Of a DNA stretch of 64,000 nucleotides, positions 6,789 through 64,000 are shown one piece after another. Numbering within the stretch: the first letter of the stretch is position 1; the number at the start of each line of letters is the position of its first letter. The notes beneath the pieces are model-generated. The model had not been told where the DNA came from. It did not search any database and worked only from the letters and a program-made list of their open reading frames with translations. Where the stretch lies: positions 1 to 64,000 of the forward strand of contig NZ_JACXAA010000004.1 of NCBI RefSeq assembly GCF_014699035.1. The letters are read 5' to 3'. The position numbers and the translations under genes are program-made. The stretch comes from Spirosoma validum. GTDB lineage: Bacteria; Bacteroidota; Bacteroidia; Cytophagales; Spirosomataceae.

Positions 6789-7083
6789 GATCAATTCAGG
6801 TTGTCTGTTTTTAGCATGTAACAAAGCGCAGGCCTTAACGTACCTACTCTGAACCGAAAATGAACGAGTACCAGGGAATAGCTCCCATATGATTTTCCTC
6901 TTTAATCGCATACCATACAATAAAACCAAATTGAATAATATAGATATTTTTTTGTACTTGAAGGCATTACTGGCACTATTGAGCTGTGTGTTTTTACCTA
7001 AATGAATTGCGAATACTTTATATGTTCATTCTATTAAAATCGAAAACTATTTAGTGTATTCTTTATAATTTATCAATGATCGT

Positions 7084-19461: not shown

Positions 19462-20991
19462 TTACTTCTTATCCCACCAGATTCGCGTATCTAATAAGTT
19501 CGGGCCCTGCCGGCTAATGGCCTGTTGCACATTGGTTTTGTTAACGTTCAGTTCAGCATCCGTGTAGGTGAGCCGCCGGATGAAGGGTTCCGTTTTAAGG
19601 TCACTGCCCGGATACGGATTCGGCGTCAGAACGGGGTAGCCCGATCGGCGGAAGTTGGCCCAGGCTTCGGGACCGATCAGAAACGAAGCGATCCAGTACT
19701 GGGTGTTGATCTGTTCCAGCTCTTTCCCAGCCGTCAGTGGATTCGCCGTTACGTAGGTCGTGATGGCTGCGTCGGCAATGGCCGTGCTGGTGCCGTAGCT
19801 GGCAAGTTGCCGCATGTGCGATCGGATGCCGTTGGTGTAGAGCACAGCCGCATCGCCCGTGGTCCATTTTCGAACGACTGCTTCGGCGAGTAAGAGCTGC
19901 GTTTGCGCGTACGTGACCAGAAAACTGGGCGCTATCAAACTAGCCATTCGGGTTCGGTCGAGCTGACTGTAGTCCCACAGGCTGGCCAGTTTGGACGCAG
20001 TCACGGCTGTGGCGATAGTCGTGTTATCGTAGCCAAGCGGAGCGCCGATCTGAACCGCAGGCGTTCGGTTTGCCCGCGACTCGACCTGTTGCGCACCACT
20101 TGTCGCGCCGACGTAACGGACCGCGATGGATGCCAACCGGGGATCATTCGTTTTATTGAGGAACGTAACAAAATCTTCGGCCAGATAAAAGAACGCCGAC
20201 TGACCGCCATTTAATTGCGAACCAACGGGATTGGTAAAACTAGCCGTATGCCGGATCACGGCATTGTCATCGTTGGATTGCATGACTCCGCCCGCTACTG
20301 CTTTCGCTACGTATTCGGCGGCTTTGGTTGGATTTACTTTGGACAGGCGCATGGCTGCCCGCAGCATAAGCGAATAACCAAGCCGTTTCCATTTTGGTAC
20401 GTCACCATCGTACATGAGATCGCTAGCTACTTTAGTTTTCGTCGCATCCAAAGCCGCCGAAGCCGCATCCAGCTCGGTGAGAATATCTGTATAAACGGCT
20501 TCCTGTGTGTCGTAAACGGGGGCGATGACACCTTCCAGATAGCTCTTGCCCGCTTGCGTGTATGGAATGTCGCCATACGTATCGGTTAGGATCATGAACG
20601 AATACGCCCGCCAGATTCGCGTCATGTTGTAGAGGTTCGTGCGGTTAGGATCGTCTTTGGTTTTGGCGATCGCGTCGGTCAACTCCTTAATCACTGTCTG
20701 GTAGAACGTATTCCAGTTGCCAGCCGCCACACTCCGGTTATCCTGATTGAAATTAGCTGCCGACCCCTGGCCACTGAACGGCGTAATCATCTGTTTAACG
20801 ATGGTTGTTTCGTAGCTGAGATTGCCGTAACCCGGTACGCTGTTGATGATGGCCGTATTTAGCTGAAAGCCGGGGTCAACGGCCGTCAGCGCAACGGGAT
20901 TGACGTTCAGTTCGTCGAAACCTTTATCACATGAAGCGAGGGAAAGACAGGCAATGAGCGAAGCAGACAGGTATGTGTTAAATTTTTTCAT
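19462..20991 (-). CDS. SusD/RagB-like outer-membrane lipoprotein
   Basis: 509 residues. Signal peptide ends in a lipobox, LSLAS-C (Cys about 22), then DKGFDELNVNP, the classical start of SusD-like group 2 proteins. Further family marks are MTRIWRAYSFMILTDTYGDIPYTQA, FLLVTYAQTQLLLAEAVVRKW (a TPR-like helix pair) and a C-terminal RRLTYTDAELNVN. SusD proteins sit on SusC channels and bind the ligand as a lid. The gene is 17 bases downstream of the SusC gene on the same strand. The ligand is likely a sugar acid or a glycan containing one, given the genes that follow. Confidence 0.93.
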   Translation of the reverse strand: MKKFNTYLSASLIACLSLASCDKGFDELNVNPVALTAVDPGFQLNTAIINSVPGYGNLSYETTIVKQMITPFSGQGSAANFNQDNRSVAAGNWNTFYQTVIKELTDAIAKTKDDPNRTNLYNMTRIWRAYSFMILTDTYGDIPYTQAGKSYLEGVIAPVYDTQEAVYTDILTELDAASAALDATKTKVASDLMYDGDVPKWKRLGYSLMLRAAMRLSKVNPTKAAEYVAKAVAGGVMQSNDDNAVIRHTASFTNPVGSQLNGGQSAFFYLAEDFVTFLNKTNDPRLASIAVRYVGATSGAQQVESRANRTPAVQIGAPLGYDNTTIATAVTASKLASLWDYSQLDRTRMASLIAPSFLVTYAQTQLLLAEAVVRKWTTGDAAVLYTNGIRSHMRQLASYGTSTAIADAAITTYVTANPLTAGKELEQINTQYWIASFLIGPEAWANFRRSGYPVLTPNPYPGSDLKTEPFIRRLTYTDAELNVNKTNVQQAISRQGPNLLDTRIWWDKK

Positions 20992-21008
20992 GGTCGTCTG
21001 AGGAGGGA

Positions 21009-24000
21009 TTAGAATCGAACATTCAGATTGAAACCGATACTCCGGGTGATGGGCAATCCAGTCGCTTCGAGGCCAATCAGGTTATCGGAGGGGAAACCGA
21101 ACTGCTCAGGATGGATATTAGGCACCCATTTTTTGATGACCGCTACGTTGTTTGCCACGGCGTTTAACCGGATGCCTTTAATGAACGGAATGGTTGATGG
21201 CAGGAACCGGCTGAAGTCATAGCCAACCGTGATTTGTCGCAACTGCCATAAACCGGCATTGTAAACAAACTCCTCAGCGATATTCTGCGACCGTACCGTT
21301 TCGTAATAGGCCTGTACACCTGACTTGGTTTTGTTGATCTCGCCATTGGGGTTGACGCCATCACCAATGACGAAATTCTCTTCCCGCCCGACCAGCGTCG
21401 CTTTGTGCAGGCCGTGCCGCCAGGCGTTGTGGTTGGTGCCCGAAATCATCTTATGGCCCAATTTGAAATCGATCAGGAACGACAGACTGACTCCTTTGTA
21501 GGTAAAACTGTTGGTGAACCCACCGACCCACAAAGGCAGAGCGCTACCAAAGCTGATCTGCGTAGCAGTACGTAGCGGCCGCCCGTTTCCAGCGTCAAAA
21601 ACCTGTCGGCCCTGCGCGTCGCGTAAGTAGCCGAATCCAAACAATTGCCCGATTGGCTGGCCAACCACCTGCCGGAGTTCGCCGGTAAACTCGCCGGTTC
21701 CAACGGTGATCATGTTGTCGCTCGCACTCGTTCCCAGGTCAAGTACTTTCGTTGTGTTGTAAGCTGCATTGAGATTGACATCCCAGCTGAAACTAGCCAG
21801 TTTAATAGGGGAGAACGTAACGAGCATTTCCAAACCCCGATTCTGGCTTTGTCCCACGTTGATCAATTGCGTCAGATAACCGCCCGCGTCGGATGTTTGA
21901 GCGCGCAGAATCTGATCAGAAGATAATTTGTCGTAATACGTCAGGTCTAACCCCAGCCGGTTATTGAATAGTTTTAACTCCAGACCAACTTCTTTTTCCG
22001 AAACCCGCATCGGCCGCAGATTGGCGTTCGGAACCGTTGAGCCGCTGATGCTGGCCAGGGGTTGGGCGATGCCGCTTGGCGACGGAAATTGCTGAGCGTT
22101 AATGCCATAGAACAGGTTGTTCGCGTAAGGGGCAACGTCGGTGTCGCTGCCCACTTCGGCATAAGCTGCCCGGATTTTGCCAAAGGTGATCCATTTTGGT
22201 AGTACGTTGGCGAAGGCCTGCGAAAACACGAAACTAGCCGTTGCCGACGGATAGAGAATACTGCGATTGGCGGGCGATAAAGTTGAAAACCAGTCATTTC
22301 GAACCGTTCCATTCAGAAACAGAAAGTCTTTAAACGAAACCTCCGCTGACCCATACAGTGAGTTGACTTTCCGTTCAGATAATTCATAGGTCGGGTCCTT
22401 CTGACGACCGTTACCAATGGTATAGAGGCCGCGCGTATAGAAGTCCTGCACAAAAACGTTGTGTCGGCTAATGCGCCGGTACATCTGGTTGCCACCCGCA
22501 TTCACATTCACCCCAAAAACGCCGAATGTCTTGTTCGCACCGATCAGAAAATCGGTGTTTAGTTCGCGCACCATCCGGGAGTCCTGTGTGTACTGGCCAT
22601 TGACAAAACCGGCCGGTGCTGCCGCCTGGCGTTGGCTGCCGGTGGGCAGGTTGTAATCCTGTTCGCGGGAATAATAATCTTGCCCAACCCGAGCTTGTAG
22701 AAACAGCCAGTCCGTCATGTTGTAGCGGGCGGTCAGGTTACCGAACACGCGGTCGTTGCGGATGTTGTCGAAGCGTTTCAGCGCGAAATACGGATTGGTC
22801 CGGTTCGTAAATCGTGACCAGACCACTTCGTTCCCATTCGCATCCGACGCGTATTTTTCGAGCAGTTCAAGCGGCATGGAATTCGCCATACTGAACAGTA
22901 CAACCGGACTATAATCCTGCTCAGCAATGTTCGGTGGATTGGTCCGTCGTTCGTTCGAATAATTAACGTTTCCCGATATGGTCAGTCGTTTCGCCAGCGT
23001 CTGTGTAAACCCAAGGTTAACGGTTTTGCGGTTATAGCCCGAGCCGGGCAGAATGGTTTTGTTATCCAGATTGGATATGGATAGATTGAAACCACCAAAT
23101 TCACCTCCGGACGAGAGGCTTATCGTGTTGGTCCAGGTTTGTCCGGTTCGGTAGTAATCGGTGATCTGGTGGCGCTGCGGTTCGTAAGGGGCTACTACGT
23201 TATCAAACAAAACCTGCGTCATGCCGGGCTGGAATTTCTCACCAAAACTCCATTGCCCCGATGTCGGAAACGGAGCTGTTGGCCGAACGCCGTTTTCGCC
23301 CTGACCGTATTCGTATTGATAATCTGTATAATCTAACGGCGTATCGGTTGTGAAGTTCGTGTTGTATTCTAGGCCTATACCACTGCCGGAGCCACGGGTC
23401 TTGGTCGTAATCATGATGACACCATCTTTCGCGCGAGACCCGTATAACGCCGAAGCAGCCGCCCCTTTCAGAACGGTCATGGTTTCGATATTATCGGGAT
23501 TAATGCTACTCAGCCCATCACCCCCATCGGAGGTACGATTGCTGCCTTTTTCGGAGACGTCACCCCGGGCGCCGTAGTTCGTGTTATCGATGGGTACGCC
23601 GTTGACCACAATCAAGGGGGAGTTGTTGCCGCCGAAAGAGGATTGCCCCCGAATCCGAATCTTACTGGTTCCGGCTGGTCCTGACCCCAGCGACGTAATG
23701 TTAACCCCAGGGATTTTTCCCTGTAAGGTGTTCATGAAGTTAGCCGTTCGGTTGACGGTTATCTGATCCGACGTAACCGTTGACGTAGCGTAGCCAATGC
23801 TTTTAGCGGCTTTCTTGATGCCTAATGCTGTGACGACGACTTCGCCCAATGCTTTGCTTTCCGGCACCAGCGAAACGCTTAAATTTGACTGGTTACCTAC
23901 GCTGATCTCTTTTCCTTCGTAACCCACGAAGCTAAACACCAGCACGGTTGTCCCCGCGTCGGGAATATCCAGTTGAAACGAACCGCCAGCATTCGTAGTT

Positions 24001-54087: not shown

Positions 54088-54271
54088 GCCACCTGTAAAA
54101 ACACTTCATCAAAAAAGGCAGGAAAAACGGTGGAGCAAAGTAGCCTCCACTTATTCCAAGCTCCTTGCTACCGGAGCCAAGAAAACGGCTTGCGAACAGG
54201 AAGTCATGCGAAAGTTTAAAATTGGTTCGCGGGCAACGGTTTGGCGGATCGTTAGTAGGGCAACGCAATAA
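54086..54271 (+). pseudogene. Start-less copy of the island's small HTH gene
   Basis: The plus frame ending at the stop 54269-54271 encodes PPVKTLHQKRQEKRWSKV, then STYSKLLATGAKKTACEQEV and FKIGSRATVWRIVSRATQ. It aligns along its full length with the 60-residue protein at 39051 (KLLATGSKATAIEHALAKQY, YKVSQSTVQRVVQAQRQ). At the place of that gene's ATG stands AGG (54086-54088), so one base change could have removed the start. No other start codon is available upstream before a stop at 54071. Confidence 0.65.
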
Positions 54272-54419
54272 GTCTTCTTGAATTAATGACCAATCATTTA
54301 TATTTACGGCTTACGTTATTAGCAAACACTCTATTATGTGCAAAATTTTTACTTTACGTAGTATTAAGTAAATGGAGATGTTACGATGCTTCACAAAATA
54401 ACTGTTGCGAACGGTCAGT

Positions 54420-55361
54420 ATGAATAAAACAAGGCAACTACTTTACCGCACTAAAATTGCAATTGATTCTACATATCACGTTTACTGGACAAGTCTCGAT
54501 CTTAGCATAAAGGGAGCATTAATCGCTGCGTTTGTCAGTCTATTGGTCGTTTATATTCAAAAAGAGCAACAGGATAAAAAAGATAAAGATCAACAAACGC
54601 AAACAGAACAGAATAAACTAAAATATTTAAACTTTTTGATCAATGATTCTTACAAGACACTTGATTATTACAACGAAGGCGTTATAAGTATGGTGAAAAA
54701 TTATAAGGAAAATCCGTTTGTCGTATCAAATCTTCCCACTTATGTGCCCTATGGAATAAATAGCATTGCTACAAAAATAAATCAAGAAGAATATTACTTA
54801 GCTTCTGTAAATCAATTCAAAACAGGCGAGGTGGCGGAATTACTACAATTATATAGTCACCTAAATTTTCAATATACTTTAGCTGTAGACCACTATAAAA
54901 AGGAATTTCCAATTCTAATAAACCTGAGAGATACTTACTATGACAATTTGACGAATCTGACAAAATCGGTTAACCAATTTATATTAAGCGAAAGTAAAAA
55001 AAAATTAACAGGCAATGAGAAAGTTATTTTTGACGAAATTAATGCACTTGCAGGGGAAGTAAATAATAATTTGACTATTCAGACCAATCAAGATATATGG
55101 CTAAAAGACTCTAAGGTGGCCTTCGTTGAAAAATTAGAGCGTATTCTTGATGCAAGGGGCATGGCATTACATCAAAACCTATTAAAAGAATGCAAATCGG
55201 TTAAAATTGAACATGCAAAATATCTTAGCCACTCATTTAACGTTATCGGTGGAATGGAGATAAGTCGTCGGAATCAACAAGATATGCTAAAACGCATCAA
55301 AAAGACTGGGCAGCCTTTATTTGATTACATTGAAAGCTTAAAAAGAAACTCTAAATTATAG
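54420..55361 (+). CDS. Membrane-anchored helical protein, unknown function
   Basis: 313 residues from ATG at 54420. One transmembrane helix (about 29-46, IKGALIAAFVSLLVVYIQ) is followed by a coiled segment rich in Lys/Asp/Gln and about 230 residues of helical sequence (for example LLQLYSHLNFQYTLAVDHYK). Coding sequence is AT-rich, unlike the core genome. It is the first gene of the right-hand accessory region and shares orientation with the 55438 gene. Similar anchored helical proteins occur in defence islands, but no family is recognised. Confidence 0.65.
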   Translation: MNKTRQLLYRTKIAIDSTYHVYWTSLDLSIKGALIAAFVSLLVVYIQKEQQDKKDKDQQTQTEQNKLKYLNFLINDSYKTLDYYNEGVISMVKNYKENPFVVSNLPTYVPYGINSIATKINQEEYYLASVNQFKTGEVAELLQLYSHLNFQYTLAVDHYKKEFPILINLRDTYYDNLTNLTKSVNQFILSESKKKLTGNEKVIFDEINALAGEVNNNLTIQTNQDIWLKDSKVAFVEKLERILDARGMALHQNLLKECKSVKIEHAKYLSHSFNVIGGMEISRRNQQDMLKRIKKTGQPLFDYIESLKRNSKL

Positions 55362-55437
55362 TTACACAACTTGGATACACCCAGTAGTTATAAAGATACC
55401 GAATCACATTAATTTAACTAAAGATTAGTTTACATAC

Positions 55438-56181
55438 ATGAATACTGTTCCACCCAATACACCAAGTAGCAACGCTTGGCAAAAACTCTGGAATTTTATA
55501 AAACCACACATTGGGCCTGTAATAGGAGGATTGATTGCAATTGGCGCTTACTCAAGTGATAGTATATTATGGCAATTGTTTCCTCATGATGAATTTAATG
55601 TAAGCCCAATGTCGGGGCTGTTTGGCACTATCAATGGCATGAATGGCTTAGTACAAAACCCCGGCTCAACTGAGTCTAAAGTATTGGTGCCTAGTAGTTG
55701 TTTAATATATGTAACGATAAAAAATGTAAGCTCAAGTAATCAACGTATAGTAGGAGTAGGTTTGGAGTGCAAAAACCCGGTCAATGAATGGGAAAAACTC
55801 TATTGCCTGCAAACCCACGACGGCTATTATAGACTTATCGAAAACAAGAAATTCCAAAAATTTCAGTTAGAAGGGGGCAATTTAATGGATACATTAGGTA
55901 GGGCTGTACTGCCGCCAAATGCAGAGCTTTCCGGTTGGTTTATTGTTGCCAGTTTAAAAAACGCTCGTCAATCTTATCATATGGATAATTTTAGACTAAC
56001 GATTAACAAAGGTTATGGTAAATATGAGTATAAAGAATTGATAAGTTACAAGCCCGATAACTTTGCTGCTCAATTTGGGGGAATGGCAATGACTGCACTA
56101 CCAGATACCGTCAACCTAGATGCTTGCGCTAGTTGCATAATTGCTCCAGTAGATGAAGTTGCCCCAGTTTACGTAAAATAA
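55438..56181 (+). CDS. Membrane-anchored protein, unknown function
   Basis: 247 residues. A possible transmembrane helix lies at about 25-42 (IGPVIGGLIAIGAYSSDSIL), followed by a beta-rich domain with SCLIYVTIKNVSSSNQRIVG and ELSGWFIVASLKNARQSYHM, which has an immunoglobulin-like look. The C-terminal part has two Cys (DACASCIIAP). AT-rich. It follows the 54420 gene by 76 bases and the two may work together at the membrane. Confidence 0.6.
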   Translation: MNTVPPNTPSSNAWQKLWNFIKPHIGPVIGGLIAIGAYSSDSILWQLFPHDEFNVSPMSGLFGTINGMNGLVQNPGSTESKVLVPSSCLIYVTIKNVSSSNQRIVGVGLECKNPVNEWEKLYCLQTHDGYYRLIENKKFQKFQLEGGNLMDTLGRAVLPPNAELSGWFIVASLKNARQSYHMDNFRLTINKGYGKYEYKELISYKPDNFAAQFGGMAMTALPDTVNLDACASCIIAPVDEVAPVYVK

Positions 56182-56320
56182 TTGTTACGCAACCTTTGCA
56201 GATAGTTGTCTTACTAACAAATGCGCTAGTCAATAAATCTACCGCTTACTCAATTTCGTATTTACTATATGCGCTGGTACTCCGTATTACCCTTGCCAGC
56301 GTGATTGAATAGGGCACCCG

Positions 56321-56356
56321 AAATAGGAACCTCATTGAGTGGGTTCCTATTTTTTT
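56321..56356 (+). terminator. Hairpin module 1
   Basis: AAATAGGAACC (56321-56331) pairs with GGTTCCTATTT (56342-56352), followed by Ts to 56356. Confidence 0.85.
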
Positions 56357-56442
56357 CTAACGTGGACAGTTAGCCAATCCTCCGACCCTCGCTTTACCGT
56401 ATATATTCAGACTGATTCAAAAACTAATAGGGAGCATCATAA

Positions 56443-56483
56443 AAATAGGAACCCCCGCAACATGGTGAGGTTCCTATTTTTTT
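56443..56483 (+). terminator. Hairpin module 2
   Basis: AAATAGGAACC (56443-56453) pairs with GGTTCCTATTT (56469-56479), then Ts to 56483. Its stem is identical to module 1; the loop differs. Confidence 0.85.
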
Positions 56484-56574
56484 CCATCAGGGACCTAGAC
56501 TAGTAGGAAATCCCTTATCTGCGCTTAATCGTGTGTATACTACTATTTCAAAAACTCATAGGGAAGGAGTAAAA

Positions 56575-56609
56575 GCAGGAACCCCGGCGTATGGATGGTT
56601 CCTGTTTTT
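56575..56609 (+). terminator. Hairpin module 3
   Basis: GCAGGAACC (56575-56583) pairs with GGTTCCTGT (56597-56605, one G-U), then Ts to 56609. Confidence 0.75.
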
Positions 56610-56757
56610 ATGTGCCGTTACGCAGTTTGGGCAGATAGTTGTCTGGCTAATAGTTAGCATATCAATTAAGATACCGTACAGGCATATCATCTTAATTATC
56701 AGTCATTCTTTAGTGAAAAAATAGTAGTATTGCAGCCTTTCTGATACAAATGATTAA

Positions 56758-57465
56758 ATGCCAATGAAAAGTCCTTCCATTACAATTATAGACCCATCAT
56801 TTTTATTCAGAAGAGGGCTTGAAACTGTCTTAAAGGGGGTAGAATATGAAAACGTTGAATCATATCAAGACATAGATGAATATTTTAAGAACAAAACTGG
56901 GCAACCGACGGACGATATTATGTTCATGAATTTATCTGTTGACTCCTCTGGCCACAGTATCAGCATGTCTGGGCGAGAAAGTCTTTTCAAAATAAGAGAA
57001 AATTCATTTAGTGGCAGATTGATTATAATGCTAGATCAACTTGACGATCAAATAATTACGGAACTTATACAAAGAAGAATTGATGGAATTATGGTAAAAA
57101 GGTTTGCCCAAGAAGAGGACATCATTACTGCTATAAAGCGCGTTAATGGTGGGTCAAATTACTATAGTCCTGAAATTACAGAGGTCCTCGCAAATATTAT
57201 AAGTCATGGTAACTATAAGACACCTCACATAACCAACGAATTTCTTTCCCAACTAACAAACAGAGAAAAAGAGGTACTTTTGTTAATAGGAGAAGGACTC
57301 AAAAATGAAGAAATAGCTAAAAGGCTATATGTTGACCCTCGCACAATTTCAACACATAAACAAAACATAAAGAATAAATTAGAGCTTGATGATTCCAATG
57401 ACCTTATACGATATATAATGATCAATATAGGTAGCATAAGAAGTATACTTGGTAGTTTTCACTAG
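56758..57465 (+). CDS. NarL/LuxR-type regulator with degenerate receiver domain
   Basis: 235 residues. The N-terminal receiver-like domain opens ITIIDPSFLFRRGLETVLKG with one acidic residue (Asp12) where two are usual. The phospho-acceptor place reads DIMFMNLSVDSS, with Asn58 instead of Asp. The conserved Lys is kept (IDGIMVKRF, Lys124). The C-terminal LuxR domain is intact: LTNREKEVLLLIGEGLKNEE, IAKRLYVDPRTISTHKQNIK. It probably works without classical phosphorylation. No sensor kinase is adjacent. AT-rich coding sequence fits the accessory region. Confidence 0.85.
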   Translation: MPMKSPSITIIDPSFLFRRGLETVLKGVEYENVESYQDIDEYFKNKTGQPTDDIMFMNLSVDSSGHSISMSGRESLFKIRENSFSGRLIIMLDQLDDQIITELIQRRIDGIMVKRFAQEEDIITAIKRVNGGSNYYSPEITEVLANIISHGNYKTPHITNEFLSQLTNREKEVLLLIGEGLKNEEIAKRLYVDPRTISTHKQNIKNKLELDDSNDLIRYIMINIGSIRSILGSFH

Positions 57466-57620
57466 ACTAATGCATTATAAAGTACTAGACATCTTAGAAA
57501 AATCTTACTTTCTATTATTTGAAAATCCATATAATTATTAGATGTTTAGATTTCTAATAAATCAACTTTTGTATTGTTCTGTAATGAGGCAACAAGACAA
57601 TACTAAAATTTCTTCACGTT

Positions 57621-57851
57621 ATGAAAGAGGCCACACTAGAAAGAACAACTAGTTCAAAGATGAGGCATAAGGCACCTAAGCAAAATTCTTTTAAAAGGGT
57701 TGCTAATATTATTAATACTTCTTTGCTTGGGGCTATTGGCGGCGGTGGACTAGGAGCATTCTTAGGCATCACTGGAGCACTCTGGGGGGTTGCAATTGGA
57801 GCCCTAGCCGTAGCTTTGCCAGCCTTAAACAATGATAATTCAACCGAGTAG
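57621..57851 (+). CDS. Glycine-zipper membrane peptide
   Basis: 76 residues. A basic N-terminal half (TSSKMRHKAPKQNSFKRVAN) is followed by a Gly-rich hydrophobic stretch (LGAIGGGGLGAFLGITGALW, GVAIGALAVALP) with GxxxG repeats, and a short polar tail. Such sequences form tightly packed membrane helices, as in class II bacteriocins, pore-forming toxins or glycine-zipper lipoproteins. There is no clear double-glycine leader. A 3-helix membrane protein follows 25 bases downstream and could be an immunity partner. Function is inferred only. Confidence 0.6.
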   Translation: MKEATLERTTSSKMRHKAPKQNSFKRVANIINTSLLGAIGGGGLGAFLGITGALWGVAIGALAVALPALNNDNSTE

Positions 57852-57876
57852 CAACTGCAATCCATGCCATCCTTGA

Positions 57877-58188
57877 ATGAACTTTTACACTTGGGTGTCG
57901 CCTATAATAATAGTTGGGGGCGCACTAATAATTTGCATATCACATCCTGTAGTCTTAATTAGGAGGAAGGAGCACAAGACAATAGCACTCGACAACATTA
58001 CCACATTATTTTTCACAAGTGCCTCTTTTTTTGTTGCCCTAAGAATGCTTATCAAGACGCTTGAAAAGATCATACATACGACCGATCTTGACACAGAGCA
58101 TTTGTATGTAGTTGGTGCTAGTATAGTGGTCATGGTGAATGCAGTAATTGCCTATATAAAAAAGACATGGCCTGACCTTTGGGTCTAA
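57877..58188 (+). CDS. Small membrane protein with three helices
   Basis: 103 residues with hydrophobic segments at about 5-23 (TWVSPIIIVGGALIICISH), 42-58 (NITTLFFTSASFFVALRML) and 76-93 (HLYVVGASIVVMVNAVIAYI). The 25-base gap to the glycine-zipper gene suggests joint expression. Candidates are bacteriocin immunity, holin or small transporter subunit. No family is recognised. Confidence 0.6.
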   Translation: MNFYTWVSPIIIVGGALIICISHPVVLIRRKEHKTIALDNITTLFFTSASFFVALRMLIKTLEKIIHTTDLDTEHLYVVGASIVVMVNAVIAYIKKTWPDLWV

Positions 58189-58210
58189 AAGGATATAAAT
58201 GTATAGTAAG

Positions 58211-58233
58211 CTCCGCTAGTTCGGGGTTTTTTT
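58211..58233 (+). terminator. Terminator-like hairpin
   Basis: CTCCG (58211-58215) pairs with CGGGG (58222-58226, one G-U), followed by a run of seven Ts to 58233. It ends the 57621-58188 unit. Confidence 0.65.
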
Positions 58234-58433
58234 ATTTGATAACAGTCCATTTAAGATAATTGATGTAGCTATACCAGCTAGATTAATTCATGTAGCTACA
58301 CGTAAATAACTAGCGATGCTCAACCTTATGCTGTGCATGTTGTCCCATATCGTCTAACCATAAACATCTAATCATATAGGTAATAGATGGAATGGGGTAG
58401 CTTTTACCGGCTAACACTACTGAGCTAACTCAT

Positions 58434-59351
58434 ATGCCTAATCTGAGCGCAAACACCTTATTTCACTTTACGCCTAGAAAATGGCTACTGAGTATTTTTG
58501 AGAATGGCTTCATTCCTCGCTACAGTGCAGAATTTGCGCCCGAGCAGGACAAGGGGTATTTCAATAATTTTCCAATAGTAAAAGAATTTGCAAAGGGCGA
58601 GGGCGGTAAGTTGATTGAAAAAGATTTAACCGGATCGCACCAAGTAACGCATTACATTCCAATGATATGCTTCTGCGATATACCCCTTACGAGCCTAGTA
58701 AAGCACATGAACGTTTATTCAAGCTTTGGTCTGGGGCTGACCAAAGAGTGGGCTATAGCAAAAAAGTTAAATCCAATAATGTATGTTAATGAAGAGTCGG
58801 ACTATTTTGGAAGAATTGCCGGTATGTTATTCATGTTGGACATGACGTTCAGAATGCTGCAAGAACCATATTCACAAATAGAGAACCATTTTCCAAACTT
58901 ACATAACAATGCAAATTTTGAGAAAATTGGAACTATGAACATATTTCAAGGGCAATTATTTAGTGACTTATATAAGTATATTAAAACACATTTAAAGCCA
59001 TATCAAACCAAAAACGTATACAGAAACCAACCGCCACCATACAGGTATTACGATGAAAAAGAGTGGCGGTATGTCCCCTTTTTGCCGGATAGTGAAAAGT
59101 TACCGTCACTAATTGAGGGCATTCTAGCCGACGACAAGATTGCCGCTTTAAATAAACAAATGGAAAAACACCCTTTGTCTTTCACCCCAAAGGATGTCAA
59201 ATACATTCTCGTAGAAAAGGATAGTGATATTGAATTTGTGGTAGGTATCCTTAATGATATAAGAATTAGAACTAATAAATTTTCGCCTGAAGATATAAAT
59301 CAACTGACAACTAAAATTATGACTCGTACTCAAATAGAAGAGGATTTTTAG
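58434..59351 (+). CDS. AbiGi-family (abortive phage resistance) protein
   Basis: 305 residues. The N-terminus LSANTLFHFTPRKWLLSIFE then NGFIPRYSAEF is the typical AbiGi opening. It is followed by HYIPMICFCDIPLTSLVKHM, YSSFGLGLTKEWAIAKKLNP and IMYVNEE, and later by EKEWRYVPFLPD, all in the order seen in the AbiGi antitoxin family. In lactococcal AbiG the partner AbiGii is encoded beside it; here no nucleotidyltransferase-like partner is visible, and the next gene is a 103-residue unknown. The 'HFT..L..I...GF.PR' beginning also recalls ADP-ribosyltransferase-like folds. An anti-phage role is likely but unproven. Confidence 0.78.
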   Translation: MPNLSANTLFHFTPRKWLLSIFENGFIPRYSAEFAPEQDKGYFNNFPIVKEFAKGEGGKLIEKDLTGSHQVTHYIPMICFCDIPLTSLVKHMNVYSSFGLGLTKEWAIAKKLNPIMYVNEESDYFGRIAGMLFMLDMTFRMLQEPYSQIENHFPNLHNNANFEKIGTMNIFQGQLFSDLYKYIKTHLKPYQTKNVYRNQPPPYRYYDEKEWRYVPFLPDSEKLPSLIEGILADDKIAALNKQMEKHPLSFTPKDVKYILVEKDSDIEFVVGILNDIRIRTNKFSPEDINQLTTKIMTRTQIEEDF

Positions 59352-59465
59352 CATCATTAAAAATGCAGTCGGATTGATTCGCGTAGATATACGTAGTAGG
59401 CAGGTTGTTCAAAGGCTGCGTAACTTATTTAGCTAAGAAGTAGTTACTATGCAAAAAAATAAGCA

Positions 59466-59777
59466 ATGGGTATATACAATGATGGGACAATAAAGCCTTT
59501 TGATACGTGTCCAATAACAGGCGAACCAGCTAGTTACGATTTTTTAACTATCAGAAGAGTCAATGAGGATGGACGAACAATTAATCTAGACGGTTTTGAA
59601 TACCAATTAAAAACCCTTAATCCAAATATTACAATTCTAGTTGATGTGTTTGATTGTCAAGAAGAATTCTATTCTAAACTGCGGCCTTATGCTGACTTAA
59701 TTAAGGCGCTCATAGTAGCCTATCATAAGAATACGGTTTTCGATATGAACCCCCGACTTTTTCCATTTAGAATATAG
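59466..59777 (+). CDS. Hypothetical protein after AbiGi gene
   Basis: 103 residues, beginning MGIYNDGTIKPFDTCPITGE. Contains ITILVDVFDCQEEFYSKLRP and a helical middle. No signal or membrane helix. It lies 114 bases downstream of the AbiGi gene on the same strand and is closed by a T-rich hairpin, so it could be a partner or an independent cassette. No family is recognised. Confidence 0.55.
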   Translation: MGIYNDGTIKPFDTCPITGEPASYDFLTIRRVNEDGRTINLDGFEYQLKTLNPNITILVDVFDCQEEFYSKLRPYADLIKALIVAYHKNTVFDMNPRLFPFRI

Positions 59778-59958
59778 TGGACATGTTTGAGACTAGCAGC
59801 TAATGCTACGCTGGCTGGACTAATTCGTAAATGAATGTACAATAGGGCGCTTGATCAAAGACACTAGGTAGCAGGTAGTTGTAATTGTGTCTAAAGTATT
59901 ATGTTTGCGGTGACTTATAGCTTATAGAGTCGCAATTGACTATGTTAAAATAGAGTCA

Positions 59959-59996
59959 AAAACAGGAGGCCACGTATTGAGACTCCTGTTTTTTTA
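59959..59996. terminator. Bidirectional terminator
   Basis: AACAGGAG (59961-59968) pairs with CTCCTGTT (59983-59990); five As precede and seven Ts follow, so it can act on both converging transcripts. Confidence 0.85.
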
Positions 59997-60010
59997 TGCC
60001 GTCAGCCCAT

Positions 60011-60418
60011 CTAATCCTCTAATTCATCGGCATTGATTAGGAGCCAGCCAATTCTTGCCTTAACAATCTTGACAGCCTCTTCGTGAGACATAGTTCTTGC
60101 CTCCTCATGTAATGATCCAAACTGGGCAACATTAGTGTGTTTGGTATCCGCATAGTGAGCAAAGTAGGTAGCCAATGTTTGATACCAGGGATCGAACGCT
60201 TCATTAAATCCCGTTCTAACGCTATCATGTATTGGCGGCAGAGAGCGGACATGTTCAAATTGAACATCCGTGAATGTCGTGTATACTTGGTACCTGTATT
60301 CGTTATCTCTAAGAAATGCTTCTAACTCCTCTACCAATTGATACGCTGACTCTTTCATGATTTTGCGTATACCTGGGCCCTTTAGATCAATTTCTGATGG
60401 TTTCGATTGTGGATTCAT
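60011..60418 (-). CDS. Conserved accessory protein, paralogue of 46315 gene
   Basis: 135 residues. Shares the central QFEHVRSLPPIHDSVRTGFN and C-terminal EAVKIVKARIGWLLINADEL segments with the protein at 46315-46719. The N-terminal 25 residues differ (MNPQSKPSEIDLKGPGIRKI here, PGIRQI there). Soluble and mostly helical. The function of this family is unknown; its repeated presence in accessory DNA suggests mobility or a role tied to such elements. Confidence 0.75.
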   Translation of the reverse strand: MNPQSKPSEIDLKGPGIRKIMKESAYQLVEELEAFLRDNEYRYQVYTTFTDVQFEHVRSLPPIHDSVRTGFNEAFDPWYQTLATYFAHYADTKHTNVAQFGSLHEEARTMSHEEAVKIVKARIGWLLINADELED

Positions 60419-60626
60419 AAGTAACTATGATTTAGTGTACCAAACATAACTTAATCAAGAATTAATTGATTGAGTATTTCGTGCTTGTTTCGTAAACGGT
60501 AGTAGTGAAGCCGCTTACTCAAAGCGAGAAAGCGAGTTCACGATTTTATTGTAAGGCGGCAGGGCTATTTGTTTTTAACTCGAATGTGCTATCTTATAAT
60601 CATTAAAAATTTTCCCTCATCTCCCT

Positions 60627-60947
60627 ATGCACTACTACCTCCGCCTGCACTGCTACAACGACTCCAGCCGCCAGTCCTTTACTCAGCTTGGCCCCGATGA
60701 ATCCGTTGAGGGGCCTGTTCACTTTGAGTATGGTGAGTTGGTTCGGGTTGGAGAGGAGAAGGACGACCCGGCCACCTGGCTGTTGTATTACGTAGCACAT
60801 AGGACGGGCATGAAGCAAATTGCTGATCCGGCTAGAGAAGGGAAGAAAGCGTTATTGTTTGAGGTTTACTTGGCCAGGAAAGAACAGTGGGCGGAGTTTG
60901 AAATGCCGCAGGAGTTGCGGGATGTAATGGACTCAGACTCGTTTTAA
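60627..60947 (+). CDS. Small hypothetical protein
   Basis: 106 residues, beginning MHYYLRLHCYNDSSRQSFTQ. The middle has LVRVGEEKDDPATWLLYYVA, the end EMPQELRDVMDSDSF. Soluble, acidic, GC-richer than its neighbours. A T-rich hairpin follows. No family is recognised. Confidence 0.6.
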   Translation: MHYYLRLHCYNDSSRQSFTQLGPDESVEGPVHFEYGELVRVGEEKDDPATWLLYYVAHRTGMKQIADPAREGKKALLFEVYLARKEQWAEFEMPQELRDVMDSDSF

Positions 60948-61045
60948 TGGGTTTTAAATGTGAGTGCGCTAGTCCAAATTAAGCGGTTTGGCGTATGTTT
61001 GATAACTCTGTAAGCTTATGCTTACAATGGTGTGGATAAAAGCGG

Positions 61046-61080
61046 AAAGCTAGGCTGCCTTGTGGCCTGGCTTTTTTTTT
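61046..61080 (+). terminator. Rho-independent terminator
   Basis: AAAGCTAGGC (61046-61055) pairs with GCCTGGCTTT (61065-61074, one G-U), in a run of nine Ts ending at 61080. It serves the 60627 gene. Confidence 0.85.
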
Positions 61081-61182
61081 GCTGAAAAGCGAGAATGGCT
61101 ACCGTTAAATTAATAGGCTGCTACTGACTTGGATCTAAGGTGTAATATTGGGTGGGTCTACATTCTCATAAAATGTAACTAG

Positions 61183-61234
61183 TTGGCAACTAAACAGCCA
61201 CCGCCCGTTTGGGAGGCGGCTGTTTAGTTGCCAA
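61183..61234. terminator. 17-bp perfect hairpin after the ATPase gene
   Basis: TTGGCAACTAAACAGCC (61183-61199) and its exact complement (61218-61234), with an inner CCGCC/GGCGG pairing. It lies 45 bases beyond the stop of the minus-strand ATPase gene. The rest of 60948-61278 holds no gene. Confidence 0.75.
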
Positions 61235-61278
61235 TAGATGAGTATAATATTCAGCGTTATTAGGTCAAACGACTACTT

Positions 61279-63123
61279 TTATAAAGGTTTTATGTTGTTT
61301 TTCACTACCTCATTCGGATTTGACTGCTGTGTAAACTTTACGGGAAAACCCTGAACGTTCAAAATAGTACTGTTCTTATCAACAAGAAGAGTATTATTAC
61401 CCTCCAATTGTTCTACTTCAAATTTAAAAAGCGATGCCTTGTCCCCCAGTAGGCGCATCGCCATGTTGGTAATTTCAAGCGTAGCACTAGGCGAAGTTAA
61501 TTTACTAATCGCTGGGGCGGCAAAAGATAATAAGATTTCTGATACAGCCTCTGCTTCGTTTATATCAGGTGATAGAGATGCATATTTTAATGCTTTAATT
61601 ACGTCTGCATACTGGCTATTAATTTGCTCCATAGGGAGTTGATCCATAGACTCGGTTTCTGATGCAGCTGAAGTTATTTTGTCACTAGTCGTTACGTTTG
61701 GTTGAGCAAAGTAATAATCCTCTATTGTACCTTTTCGTAGCAAAAAGCATCCGGCCTCTTCCAAAATTCCTAGCAATCCATCGAATCGCTTGCGAGCCGT
61801 TATTAAATCAGATTTAAAGGGGAGTGAATTTAATTGCTTTATGCCAGAATTTAAAAGGTACTTCAACAGAACCCTCTTCTTTTGAGTGCTATCGGTTATA
61901 GTTTCACTCGTTAAGTGAATTTCAAGTTCAGTCCAGTGATTATCAACAATTTTGGTAAAATCTCCGTAAACTAATTTAGTCATTTCATGAACGGACTTAT
62001 GACCAAAATCCTGAGCTTTCTGCTCTGCTTTATCGTTAATTGATAACGCGTTAATTAAAGATGTTCCATCTGCAATGCTGTCTAAGTCAGTTAAAATTAC
62101 TGGTGTTTTGCCTATAGCCTGAAATAATTTTGTCACTATTGGCATTTGGTCTTTTCCAATCACAGGTAGTATCTGAGATCCAGCGGCATTCAGGTATAGA
62201 TCACACTTCCCTTCTAAGAAAGAGCATATTATCTCATCGCTCGGCCCTTCTACCATTAAAGGGCGCTGGGCGAAAAATGCAGCTTTGTGTATATGTCCCA
62301 TTCTCATAAGCAGCGACCTTATCTTATTATACTTCAACTCCTTAGCATCAAAAGCAAGCTGTTTTGGAGAAGTATCTATAGTTGAAAAAAACACGAAATT
62401 GCATATGTCTTCCGGCCTGCGAATGGTTATAAATTCAGGAGAATGGGTGCTAATAATTATCGCTTTTTTGCCAGGTATTTTAGGATCGCCAGCAACGCGT
62501 TCCATTTCCATTCTCAAGAAAGCTTGCAACTGAGGATGAAGAGAGATTTCTGGTTCGTCTATAAAAAGTATACTAATCTCATCATTATATATAGCAGTCA
62601 AAATCGACACTAAATGTAAAAGCCCACTTGCCTCTTTTGCGGATGTATAAACAGAACCTACCTCGTTAGTACGTTTAAAATTTACTTTCAAACGCCCGCT
62701 ATCCCATTCAAGAATAATATCCCGATGAAAAATTTTTCGTAGTCTTTCTGCAACCTTTATAAGTATATCAACACGATCACTCAATGTAAAAAAATCTCCT
62801 ATAGCTGATTCAGAACTCAACCTATATTGCTTAGTTCCTGAATCACCCATGTACGCATCTTCAGGATTTGTATAACTTCGTCCACCATGGGCATTTGATC
62901 TATACTGCTCATAGAAACCTAGTCTTCCTGCTGAAATGTATCTTGCAGCACAAATAGACGGTATTACATGACTATTAGCTCTTAGGAATTTAAGAAACTG
63001 AGTTTTTCCTGAACCGTTAGGGCCTACAAAAATGGTTAAGCCTGAGTGAATAGTTAAATCAACAGGATTGCCATTAAATAGGTCAGGGACTTTGTCGAAA
63101 GGGATTTTGATTGGAAAAGGCAT
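61279..63123 (-). CDS. OLD-like ATPase with TOPRIM nuclease domain
   Basis: 614 residues from ATG at 63123 (MPFPIKIPFDKV). Walker A GPNGSGKTQF (34-41), ABC-type signature AKEASGLLHLVSILTAIYND, Walker B ILFIDEPEISLHPQLQAFL, and the switch His in IIISTHSPEF make an ABC/SMC-like ATPase. A TOPRIM domain follows: LMVEGPSDEIICSFLEGK (catalytic Glu) and PVILTDLDSIADG (DxD). The C-terminal 200 residues are unassigned. This is the build of OLD-family endonucleases, several of which act against phages, including GajA of Gabija. The gene encoded upstream on the same strand may be its partner. Confidence 0.85.
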   Translation of the reverse strand: MPFPIKIPFDKVPDLFNGNPVDLTIHSGLTIFVGPNGSGKTQFLKFLRANSHVIPSICAARYISAGRLGFYEQYRSNAHGGRSYTNPEDAYMGDSGTKQYRLSSESAIGDFFTLSDRVDILIKVAERLRKIFHRDIILEWDSGRLKVNFKRTNEVGSVYTSAKEASGLLHLVSILTAIYNDEISILFIDEPEISLHPQLQAFLRMEMERVAGDPKIPGKKAIIISTHSPEFITIRRPEDICNFVFFSTIDTSPKQLAFDAKELKYNKIRSLLMRMGHIHKAAFFAQRPLMVEGPSDEIICSFLEGKCDLYLNAAGSQILPVIGKDQMPIVTKLFQAIGKTPVILTDLDSIADGTSLINALSINDKAEQKAQDFGHKSVHEMTKLVYGDFTKIVDNHWTELEIHLTSETITDSTQKKRVLLKYLLNSGIKQLNSLPFKSDLITARKRFDGLLGILEEAGCFLLRKGTIEDYYFAQPNVTTSDKITSAASETESMDQLPMEQINSQYADVIKALKYASLSPDINEAEAVSEILLSFAAPAISKLTSPSATLEITNMAMRLLGDKASLFKFEVEQLEGNNTLLVDKNSTILNVQGFPVKFTQQSNPNEVVKNNIKPL

Positions 63124-63485
63124 TAGATATAAGACTATTAATTTATAGATCAAATAACGATTTTAATGGATTCTATATCAAATCCAAAGTTTTTTGTTTC
63201 AATATTTTGGTACTATCTTAAAATCGCTTCGAGTCTCAAGTAGGGTGATTTTTACTATGCCTACTCAACCGCATTGTCAATCCTCCTCAGCATGAACTTT
63301 AAATCGCCAATCCGAACAATAGGCGGGCCGAAACCGCCCAGGTGTAACGTACCCGTTTCGGGGTAGAGAGTTTAGTTTCGAACGCTTTATAATGGCAATA
63401 GTTATCGAAAGAGGTGTAAAGTCGAGGGAGGGCAGGGCACCAAGGGGGTGAGCATTTTCTAGGTAAAGAAATCGACTAGCCTTTG
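63124..63485. other. Intergenic gap between ATPase and upstream partner gene
   Basis: About 360 bases. The part next to the ATPase gene is AT-rich and probably holds its promoter; 63290-63450 is unexpectedly GC-rich (AATAGGCGGGCCGAAACCGC) compared with both sides, without an open frame. I see no tRNA or known repeat in it. Confidence 0.35.
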
Positions 63486-64000
63486 TTATTGTATTTTTTC
63501 ATATAAAACCTTATTTATATACGCTTGCTCATTGATACCAAAGTGTTGGTATTTTATCCAGTCTAAGGAACTCAATGTACCTGTATAGTCAGACTCCTCT
63601 TTTAATATATGCTGGGTCACTACTCTTTCATTCTTTTTCATACCATCTGTAACTCTTTCTTGTACGGAACTTGTTATCTTATACACCTGTGTATCACGTC
63701 TATGTAGTTCAATATGTGTACCACTAACAAATGCGTTTTTGTACTCTTCCTTGTCCCTTCTAAAGACAGTGCGCTGAAACCACTTTTTCGATCCATCCCC
63801 TACTTCGAAAACGGCCACCAATAAAATTAAATTATTTTCGGGTTTTAATTGAAGCTCTTTTAGGTAAGTTTCTATCCCAGGGCCAATGACTGTAATATTT
63901 GTACCAGGATCAATTTTATTACCATTTATTATGTACATGTACCTGTCCGGGAAGTTATCAAACATTTGATCAGTTGCAAATAGTTTAACATTCAGGTTAT
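63486..64000 (-). CDS. Partial hypothetical protein upstream of the ATPase
   Basis: At least 171 residues; an ATG exists at 63965, but the frame remains open to the window edge (NLNVKLFATDQMFDNFPDRY), so the true start is probably outside. Beta-rich first half (LILLVAVFEVGDGSKKWFQR) and a charged second half (KKNERVVTQHILKEESDYTG). No membrane helix. It is on the same strand as the OLD-like ATPase, 362 bases upstream of it, so joint function is possible but the large gap argues for separate promoters. No family is recognised. Confidence 0.6.
   Translation of the reverse strand, partial: NLNVKLFATDQMFDNFPDRYMYIINGNKIDPGTNITVIGPGIETYLKELQLKPENNLILLVAVFEVGDGSKKWFQRTVFRRDKEEYKNAFVSGTHIELHRRDTQVYKITSSVQERVTDGMKKNERVVTQHILKEESDYTGTLSSLDWIKYQHFGINEQAYINKVLYEKIQ

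Follow-up and report, generated by a model that had tools for sequence, protein, structure and literature searches.

A tandem array of three hairpin modules, lying between a 247-aa gene and a LuxR-type regulator gene, belongs to a family of structured, terminator-ended units which occupies two loci within a prophage and two loci on other contigs of the same genome. We read the array, which lies in the accessory arm of a prophage of a tailed phage, as a series of tandem sibling small-RNA genes, or as one intact gene with reduced siblings behind it, and give this reading a probability of about 0.5. The window, that is the whole stretch of DNA analysed (64,000 nt), covers positions 1-64000 of contig C34 in a genome of 39 contigs and 8.2 Mb, the gene content of which points to a Spirosoma-like Bacteroidota. 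The features of the locus are listed below, DR being the repeat that flanks the array.

54405-55361, plus strand: 318-aa gene, whose 58%-identical paralogue adjoins the second array
55438-56181, plus strand: 247-aa gene directly upstream of the array, without Pfam or PHROGs match
56184-56217, plus strand: DR copy 1, GTTACGC-N-CAGATAGTTGTCTTACTAA, beginning 2 nt past the stop codon of the 247-aa gene
56209-56356, plus strand: module 1, a 148-nt sRNA-like unit (171.9 bits with model R1, which was built from this and three other sequences)
56229-56248, plus strand: conserved 5′ block of module 1, GTCAATAAATCTACCGCTTA
56250-56308, plus strand: outer stem (56250-56255 with 56303-56308) and inner hairpin (56271-56279 with 56294-56302, two-sided changes) of module 1
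56321-56356, plus strand: terminator-like hairpin of module 1 with T-run
56357-56484, plus strand: module 2, with the common block at 56416-56433 and a terminator-like hairpin at about 56441-56484
56485-56612, plus strand: module 3, with the common block at 56547-56564 and a terminator-like hairpin at about 56573-56609
56617-56650, plus strand: DR copy 2, upstream of the LuxR-type gene
56758-57465, plus strand: LuxR-type regulator gene downstream of the array (GerE above cut-off; Response_reg at 27.4 bits, below its cut-off of 30.2)

The earlier note had described three modules with a common AGGAACC/GGTTCCT stem, a further upstream block shared by modules 2 and 3, stems that stay constant while loops differ, and a direct repeat on either side, and each of these observations held. 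By repeat search the 3′ arms (GGTTCCTATTTTTTT type) start at 56342, 56469 and 56597, which corresponds to a module spacing of 127 and 128 nt, and the shared upstream block was found at 56411-56433 and 56542-56564 (87% identity). The constancy of the stems and the variability of the loops were read from the sequence and then folded, and the flanking repeats are identical at 22 of their first 27 nt (counted by eye) and at 79% of positions over 34 nt. This repetition is not due to chance. The reuse of a 7-mer arm by at least two hairpins more than 60 nt apart was seen in 2 of the 254 overlapping 500-nt pieces of the window, both of them being the array, and in none of 500 mononucleotide shuffles of the array. 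Furthermore, the pattern ATAGGARC-N3..25-GYTCCTAT occurs at five places in 8.2 Mb, every one a family unit, with no occurrence in the reversed control; three more family units (module 3 of the array in the window, hereafter A1, module 1 of the second array on C34, hereafter A2, and the C9 unit) differ from this stem pattern by at least one letter.

A hairpin with a T-run folded in all six stretches tested (three in A1, and those of A2, C9 and C20a). Folding z-scores were moderate, with -2.73 for module 1, -1.60 for module 2 (10 of 200 shuffles folding as well) and -2.16 for module 3 (8 of 200). A simple terminator scan returned no site in the window array, probably because it limited loops to 3-8 nt and demanded a T-run after the stem, the stems of the array themselves running into A/T tracts.

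Module 1 is present in four strong copies scoring between 145.8 and 171.9 bits, at C34:56209, C34:95367 (minus strand), C9:7253-7403 and C20:20200-20347 (minus strand), where the scores measure self-consistency, because all four sequences built the model. The prophage holds two of these loci, at 56.2 and 95.4 kb of C34, and the other two occupy gaps between genes on C9 and C20. The second array (C34:95247-95544, minus strand) is 91% identical to the array in the window over 302 nt comprising the DR, module 1 and module 2, the similarity beginning 4 nt ahead of the DR. Module 1 shares 77% identity over 101 nt with the C9 copy and 84% over 45 nt with C20a, and a weak family member lies upstream of the C20 copy, at C20:20890-21064 (minus strand). 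According to the ORF calls, the C9 unit is preceded by a minus-strand ORF (6806-7063), the closest same-strand ORF ending 498 nt earlier, and for about 1.2 kb upstream of the two C20 units there are plus-strand ORFs in between and no minus-strand ORF of at least 80 aa, the exception being an 89-aa ORF that overlaps the C20a unit itself. Since the adjacent upstream protein gene is thus on the other strand, the C9 and C20 copies are unlikely to be mere terminators of a neighbour gene. Judging by its neighbour genes, C9 is probably chromosomal, and C20, a contig of 44 kb, could be a plasmid.

An ORF with a match to the delta-endotoxin N-terminal domain (4.2e-20; 7721-9346 in L030) lies directly downstream of the C9 copy. 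Between the two C20 modules there is a perfect -7 box, TATATTTG (TAnnTTTG), and after it a short hairpin of its own with a T-run, perhaps another small RNA; it falls at about positions 350-440 of the piece (L031) that is the reverse complement of 20000-21100, and the promoter score of the stretch was equalled by 67 of 300 shuffles. The C20 copy is also neighboured by a sigma-factor gene, relatives of which were found in 24 of 36 genomes, the own genome included (41-60% identical in the others), and when 12 of the 30 sigma-factor loci were scanned with the module-1 model, the own genome alone gave a match.

In the alignment of the four copies, conservation is strongest in the 5′ block and is not confined to the hairpin; after this block come an outer stem, an inner hairpin in which three pairs have changed on both sides, and lastly the terminator hairpin. 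With four sequences compared, two-sided changes affect three pairs in helix 2 and one pair in helix 1, and C20a has two broken pairs in helix 1. We compared these values with shuffles of the 3′ letters: the six compensatory cells observed, against a shuffled mean of 2.5, were reached by 4 of 500 shuffles, the covariation score by 21 of 500 and the number of pairs with two-sided changes by 43 of 500, and the number of pair types (424 of 500) was not above the shuffled level. With four sequences, this amounts to moderate covariation support for the predicted structure of module 1, which shows, as bacterial intergenic sRNA genes do, a conserved structure with compensatory changes. High similarity to sibling copies within the genome was likewise found for module 1, and not for modules 2 and 3 relative to module 1. 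A small-RNA family, one of three readings proposed in the earlier note, therefore emerges as the best supported of them, on the basis of the four strong copies, the two copies with an opposite-strand upstream gene and the three two-sided pairs.

Under the small-RNA reading, transcription would start in or near the first DR and pass through the conserved unpaired 5′ block, the hairpin and the intrinsic terminator of module 1, mostly ending at about 56356, which would yield an RNA of about 140-150 nt. Read-through would produce longer transcripts with their ends at modules 2 and 3; these modules may also shield the LuxR-type gene, and the second DR would restart transcription for this gene. By analogy with sibling sRNAs, the conserved 5′ block may contact targets that are common to the C9 and C20 copies. 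The copies, their positions, the predicted structure and the restriction to this genome among those searched come directly from the analysis; transcription, the role of the DR and the targets are inferred. Target prediction with a 42-nt piece of module 1 against the 144 translation starts of the contig gave as best hit the AntA-type antirepressor gene at 69170 (-25.9 kcal/mol), a candidate which was rejected, because 6 of 40 shuffles were equally good and the prediction is thus no evidence.

The main rival, and a strong one, is that the modules are serial intrinsic terminators forming a transcription insulator between the prophage operons and the accessory arm, with no free RNA that matters; we regard this as possible but on the unlikely side. 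It explains modules 2 and 3 equally well. Neither was detected by the module-1 model on its own strand at E≤1, their kinship with module 1 in a MAFFT alignment consists of the stem plus the short motifs AATCYWCCG (module 2) and CGTATWTA, and they retain mainly the terminator and one short block, as an insulator would lead one to expect. In the small-RNA reading they would act as serial terminators or be read-through siblings. The same rival gains from the layout of the locus, where three hairpins of one orientation ending in T-runs follow the 318-aa and 247-aa genes and precede a same-strand LuxR-type gene, from the second array, which likewise comes after the 318-aa paralogue, and from the promoter search, in which no Bacteroidota-type (TTG/TAnnTTTG) or sigma-70-type promoter was found above chance before any module. 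Against it, module 1 keeps its 5′ block and its hairpin 2 at C9 and C20, where no same-strand gene lies closely upstream, the stem letters are retained although any stem would terminate, and the second array abuts a convergent ORF and has nothing downstream on its strand to insulate.

The modules could instead be a dispersed palindromic repeat, REP- or MITE-like or a remnant of recombination, multiplied by the copying of inverted arms and with incidental RNA features, which we consider improbable. Constant stem arms around variable loops in eight aligned units, the mutual complementarity between the arms of neighbouring modules (pairs I1 and I2), the tandem groups at three of the four loci and the seemingly recent origin of the family all agree with such an element. 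Yet the ends of module 1 are not mutual inverted repeats, no target duplication was seen by eye, and neither the conserved 5′ block nor the compensatory hairpin changes would be needed. Still less probable, in our view, is control of the LuxR-type gene by modules acting as tandem attenuators or riboswitches. In its favour, structured units resembling leaders and ending in terminators stand 5′ of a regulator gene, and blocks such as AATAGGGA could, by eye, pair with the 3′ terminator arm. Against it, no same-strand gene lies closely downstream of the second array or of the C20 copies, and the alternative pairing is not preserved in C9 or C20a (by eye). Moreover, none of the 4227 Rfam families matched the array at its gathering score, and a relaxed threshold gave four weak matches, the best with E 0.54 and all far under their gathering scores.

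The array lies within a prophage, which extends from about 39 kb (estimated by eye) to an integrase gene at 128.5-129.8 kb of C34 and contains PHROGs matches to terminase, portal, major head, tape measure and integrase genes. Seven segments of 54.1-70.7 kb recur collinear and inverted at 84.6-96.8 kb, so that, within the region made up of window 54096-64000 and C34:64001-96829, two mirrored arms sit either side of the tail-protein and tape-measure genes. The left arm carries an AbiGi-like gene, a gene for an OLD/GajA-like ATPase with TOPRIM, the AntA antirepressor gene, a GIY-YIG gene and an HTH_3 gene, the right arm a TIR gene; putative HNH-like genes and the right-arm counterparts of the arm genes were recognised from sequence alone. 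Defence-like genes of the arms are located at 58434-59351 and 61279-63153 of the window and at 8491-9384 of L029. In G022, the tape measure gene of a related prophage is likewise flanked by inverted arms, and in G006 the copies are direct.

The short genes at 54-61 kb, which had been likened to a cassette array, turned out to belong to an accessory arm of the prophage, which is mirrored at 84.6-96.8 kb. The idea of gene-less integron cassettes (attC sites), suggested by the nearby short unrelated genes and the folded repeats, is not supported and very improbable, as no integrase above the TIGR02249 cut-off of 265 was found in the whole genome; canonical attC core sites had not been seen in the earlier note. 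The best match was a 332-aa ORF on C34, aligned in two stretches of 79.6 and 55.9 bits, and the 14 control genomes gave matches below the cut-off only.

The DR flanks the array, as had been noted, and it is not a terminal repeat belonging to the array alone, since copies occur far away in the prophage: it is a separate element, dispersed in the accessory parts of this prophage and of two related ones. Allowing up to three mismatches, five copies were found in the genome, all within C34:56.2-95.5 kb (control, none), and 6 of 36 genomes of the genus gave a match. Clear copies beyond the own genome are those in the related prophages of G022 (two) and G006 (one); the single three-mismatch matches in G004, G034, G001 and at G006:3928540 were discarded as chance, because the reversed control gave nine in the same genomes. 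We then built a weight matrix from eight copies, with a threshold of 13.4, the best score among three mononucleotide shuffles of the C34 stretch, and obtained additional sites on C34 (93302, score 21.6; 53843, 16.3), in G022 (3105482, 35.1; 3090674, 31.9) and in G006 (2493937, 18.9). The prophage therefore has seven DR sites between 53.8 and 95.5 kb (53843, 56198, 56631, 71391, 82786, 93302 and 95526), G022 has four (3090674, 3091580, 3096488 and 3105482) and G006 two (2482047 and 2493937).

Most copies contain the blocks TACG and CAGATAGTTGT, 8-9 nt apart, followed by CTTACTAA, a pattern that fits a promoter or an operator. The resemblance comes from two copies about 100 nt upstream of orthologous genes: G022 3090674 and G006 2493937 face the starts of orthologous 196-aa genes (50% identity) from 95 and 109 nt, respectively. 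Other copies precede ORF starts by 70 nt (C34 53843), 127 nt (C34 56631) and 174 nt (G006 2482047), or at a greater distance by 387 nt (G022 3096488) and 435 nt (G022 3105482), and 71391, 82786, 93302 and G022 3091580 face no nearby ORF start. Both in this prophage and in G022, a DR stands at each edge of the tape-measure block. At the modules, a DR or DR-like core lies upstream of three of the four module-1 copies: C20a has a DR-core-like sequence 23 nt upstream of the 5′ block, which scores second highest among the 15,983 positions of this strand at the locus, and the C9 copy has no DR-like core.

The two-block pattern was matched by six stretches of viral contigs, two of which are the G022 prophage itself or one identical to it in sampled 40-mers, and three of the other four were rejected as lying inside ORFs. 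Among 222 genomes of the family four matched; the site in G357, between two genes that are presumably lpxC- and lpxD-like, was treated as chance.

In the portions of the source available, the stoperators of cluster A mycobacteriophages (PMC9283540) are comparable to the DR in being an asymmetric motif with several intergenic or upstream copies in one prophage, and this prophage likewise encodes an HTH protein, for which the DR is a candidate operator. Unlike these 13-mers, the DR is about 45 nt long with two conserved blocks, and its orientation does not always follow transcription, the copy at 82786 opposing both neighbouring ORFs. A more far-reaching proposal, to which we give little credence, is that within one group of Bacteroidota prophages the DR both delimits and controls accessory arms that can be exchanged. 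Arms in a paired, mirrored arrangement, with an antirepressor, homing-type endonucleases and, here, defence-like genes, flank the tape-measure region and meet it at the DR in two species. The array would then be the leader of the arm, giving a small RNA that is driven by the DR and has copies in the host genome, and through which expression of the arm would be coupled to an RNA circuit of the host.

Provided that it represents a small-RNA family, the array is ordinary in kind; the DR and the mirrored arms may eventually prove to be of greater interest. In the available parts of PMC4211561, the first 21 and last 35 nt of OmrA and OmrB are nearly identical between both, and PrrH is formed by read-through of the prrF1 terminator. 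Like OmrA/OmrB and PrrF1/PrrF2, the array has at least two related putative RNA units in tandem, each ending in a terminator; its conserved ends and divergent middle recall OmrA/OmrB, and read-through past the first terminator, as for PrrH, is possible. It differs from both pairs, as far as that source describes them, in that it is carried by a prophage, that other contigs hold single and paired relatives of it, and that it has three units, the later two reduced. For Bacteroides thetaiotaomicron, a 3′-end terminator is named among the criteria for high-confidence intergenic sRNAs in the accessible text (PMC7366714). Phage-encoded small RNAs, in the sections available of a review (PMC12197685), offer a parallel in that an RNA-like unit lies between genes of a prophage and may act on host transcripts, and the array differs from those described there in that several units of one family stand in tandem and have relatives at other places in the host genome. 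If transcribed, it would be the phage-borne branch of a small-RNA family also present elsewhere in the host genome, so that both sets of copies are directly comparable, and the linked DR offers a testable handle on how accessory, defence-like prophage genes are delimited and switched.

The search for the module in related genomes that had been proposed, carried out with the module-1 model, yielded four copies in the own genome and no convincing copy outside it: the best match in the other 35 genomes of the genus had E 0.25, and in the order, for which the search covered 291 genomes with the own one among them, three others reached E 0.015-0.049, none convincing. The model scored part of the first-look candidates, 87 of about 1,600 per genome in the genus search and 10 in the order search, so weak copies could be missed. 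With blastn at E≤1, 37 of 59 genomes (own included) matched the array; the flanks were read for 8 of 19 loci elsewhere, and only G022 and G006 were kept as possibly real, for the DR. The match in G003 was set aside, having about 34 nt in common with the 5′ block and lacking the remainder of the module. The exact 5′ block pattern occurred in two viral contigs, rejected as both lay within ORFs, and in two genome contigs (a Clostridia MAG and Acinetobacter). Allowing up to three mismatches, 55 of 200 family genomes (own included) matched; outside the own genome this made 69 matches, against about 106 in the reversed control (hand counts). By eye, the module was not visible in five of the 5′-block regions (one in the own genome) or in the G003 region. 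The family is thus, as seen so far, restricted to its own genome among the genomes searched. The array DNA had no match in phage or plasmid records, the 318-aa protein had no relatives in viral contigs, and the literature searched, available in part, contained no description of the array. Its sequence relation to known sRNAs was compared through Rfam alone, which elsewhere in the window, at 1926-1961, matched DUF805b RNA (RF02914) with 36.5 bits against a gathering score of 35.6.
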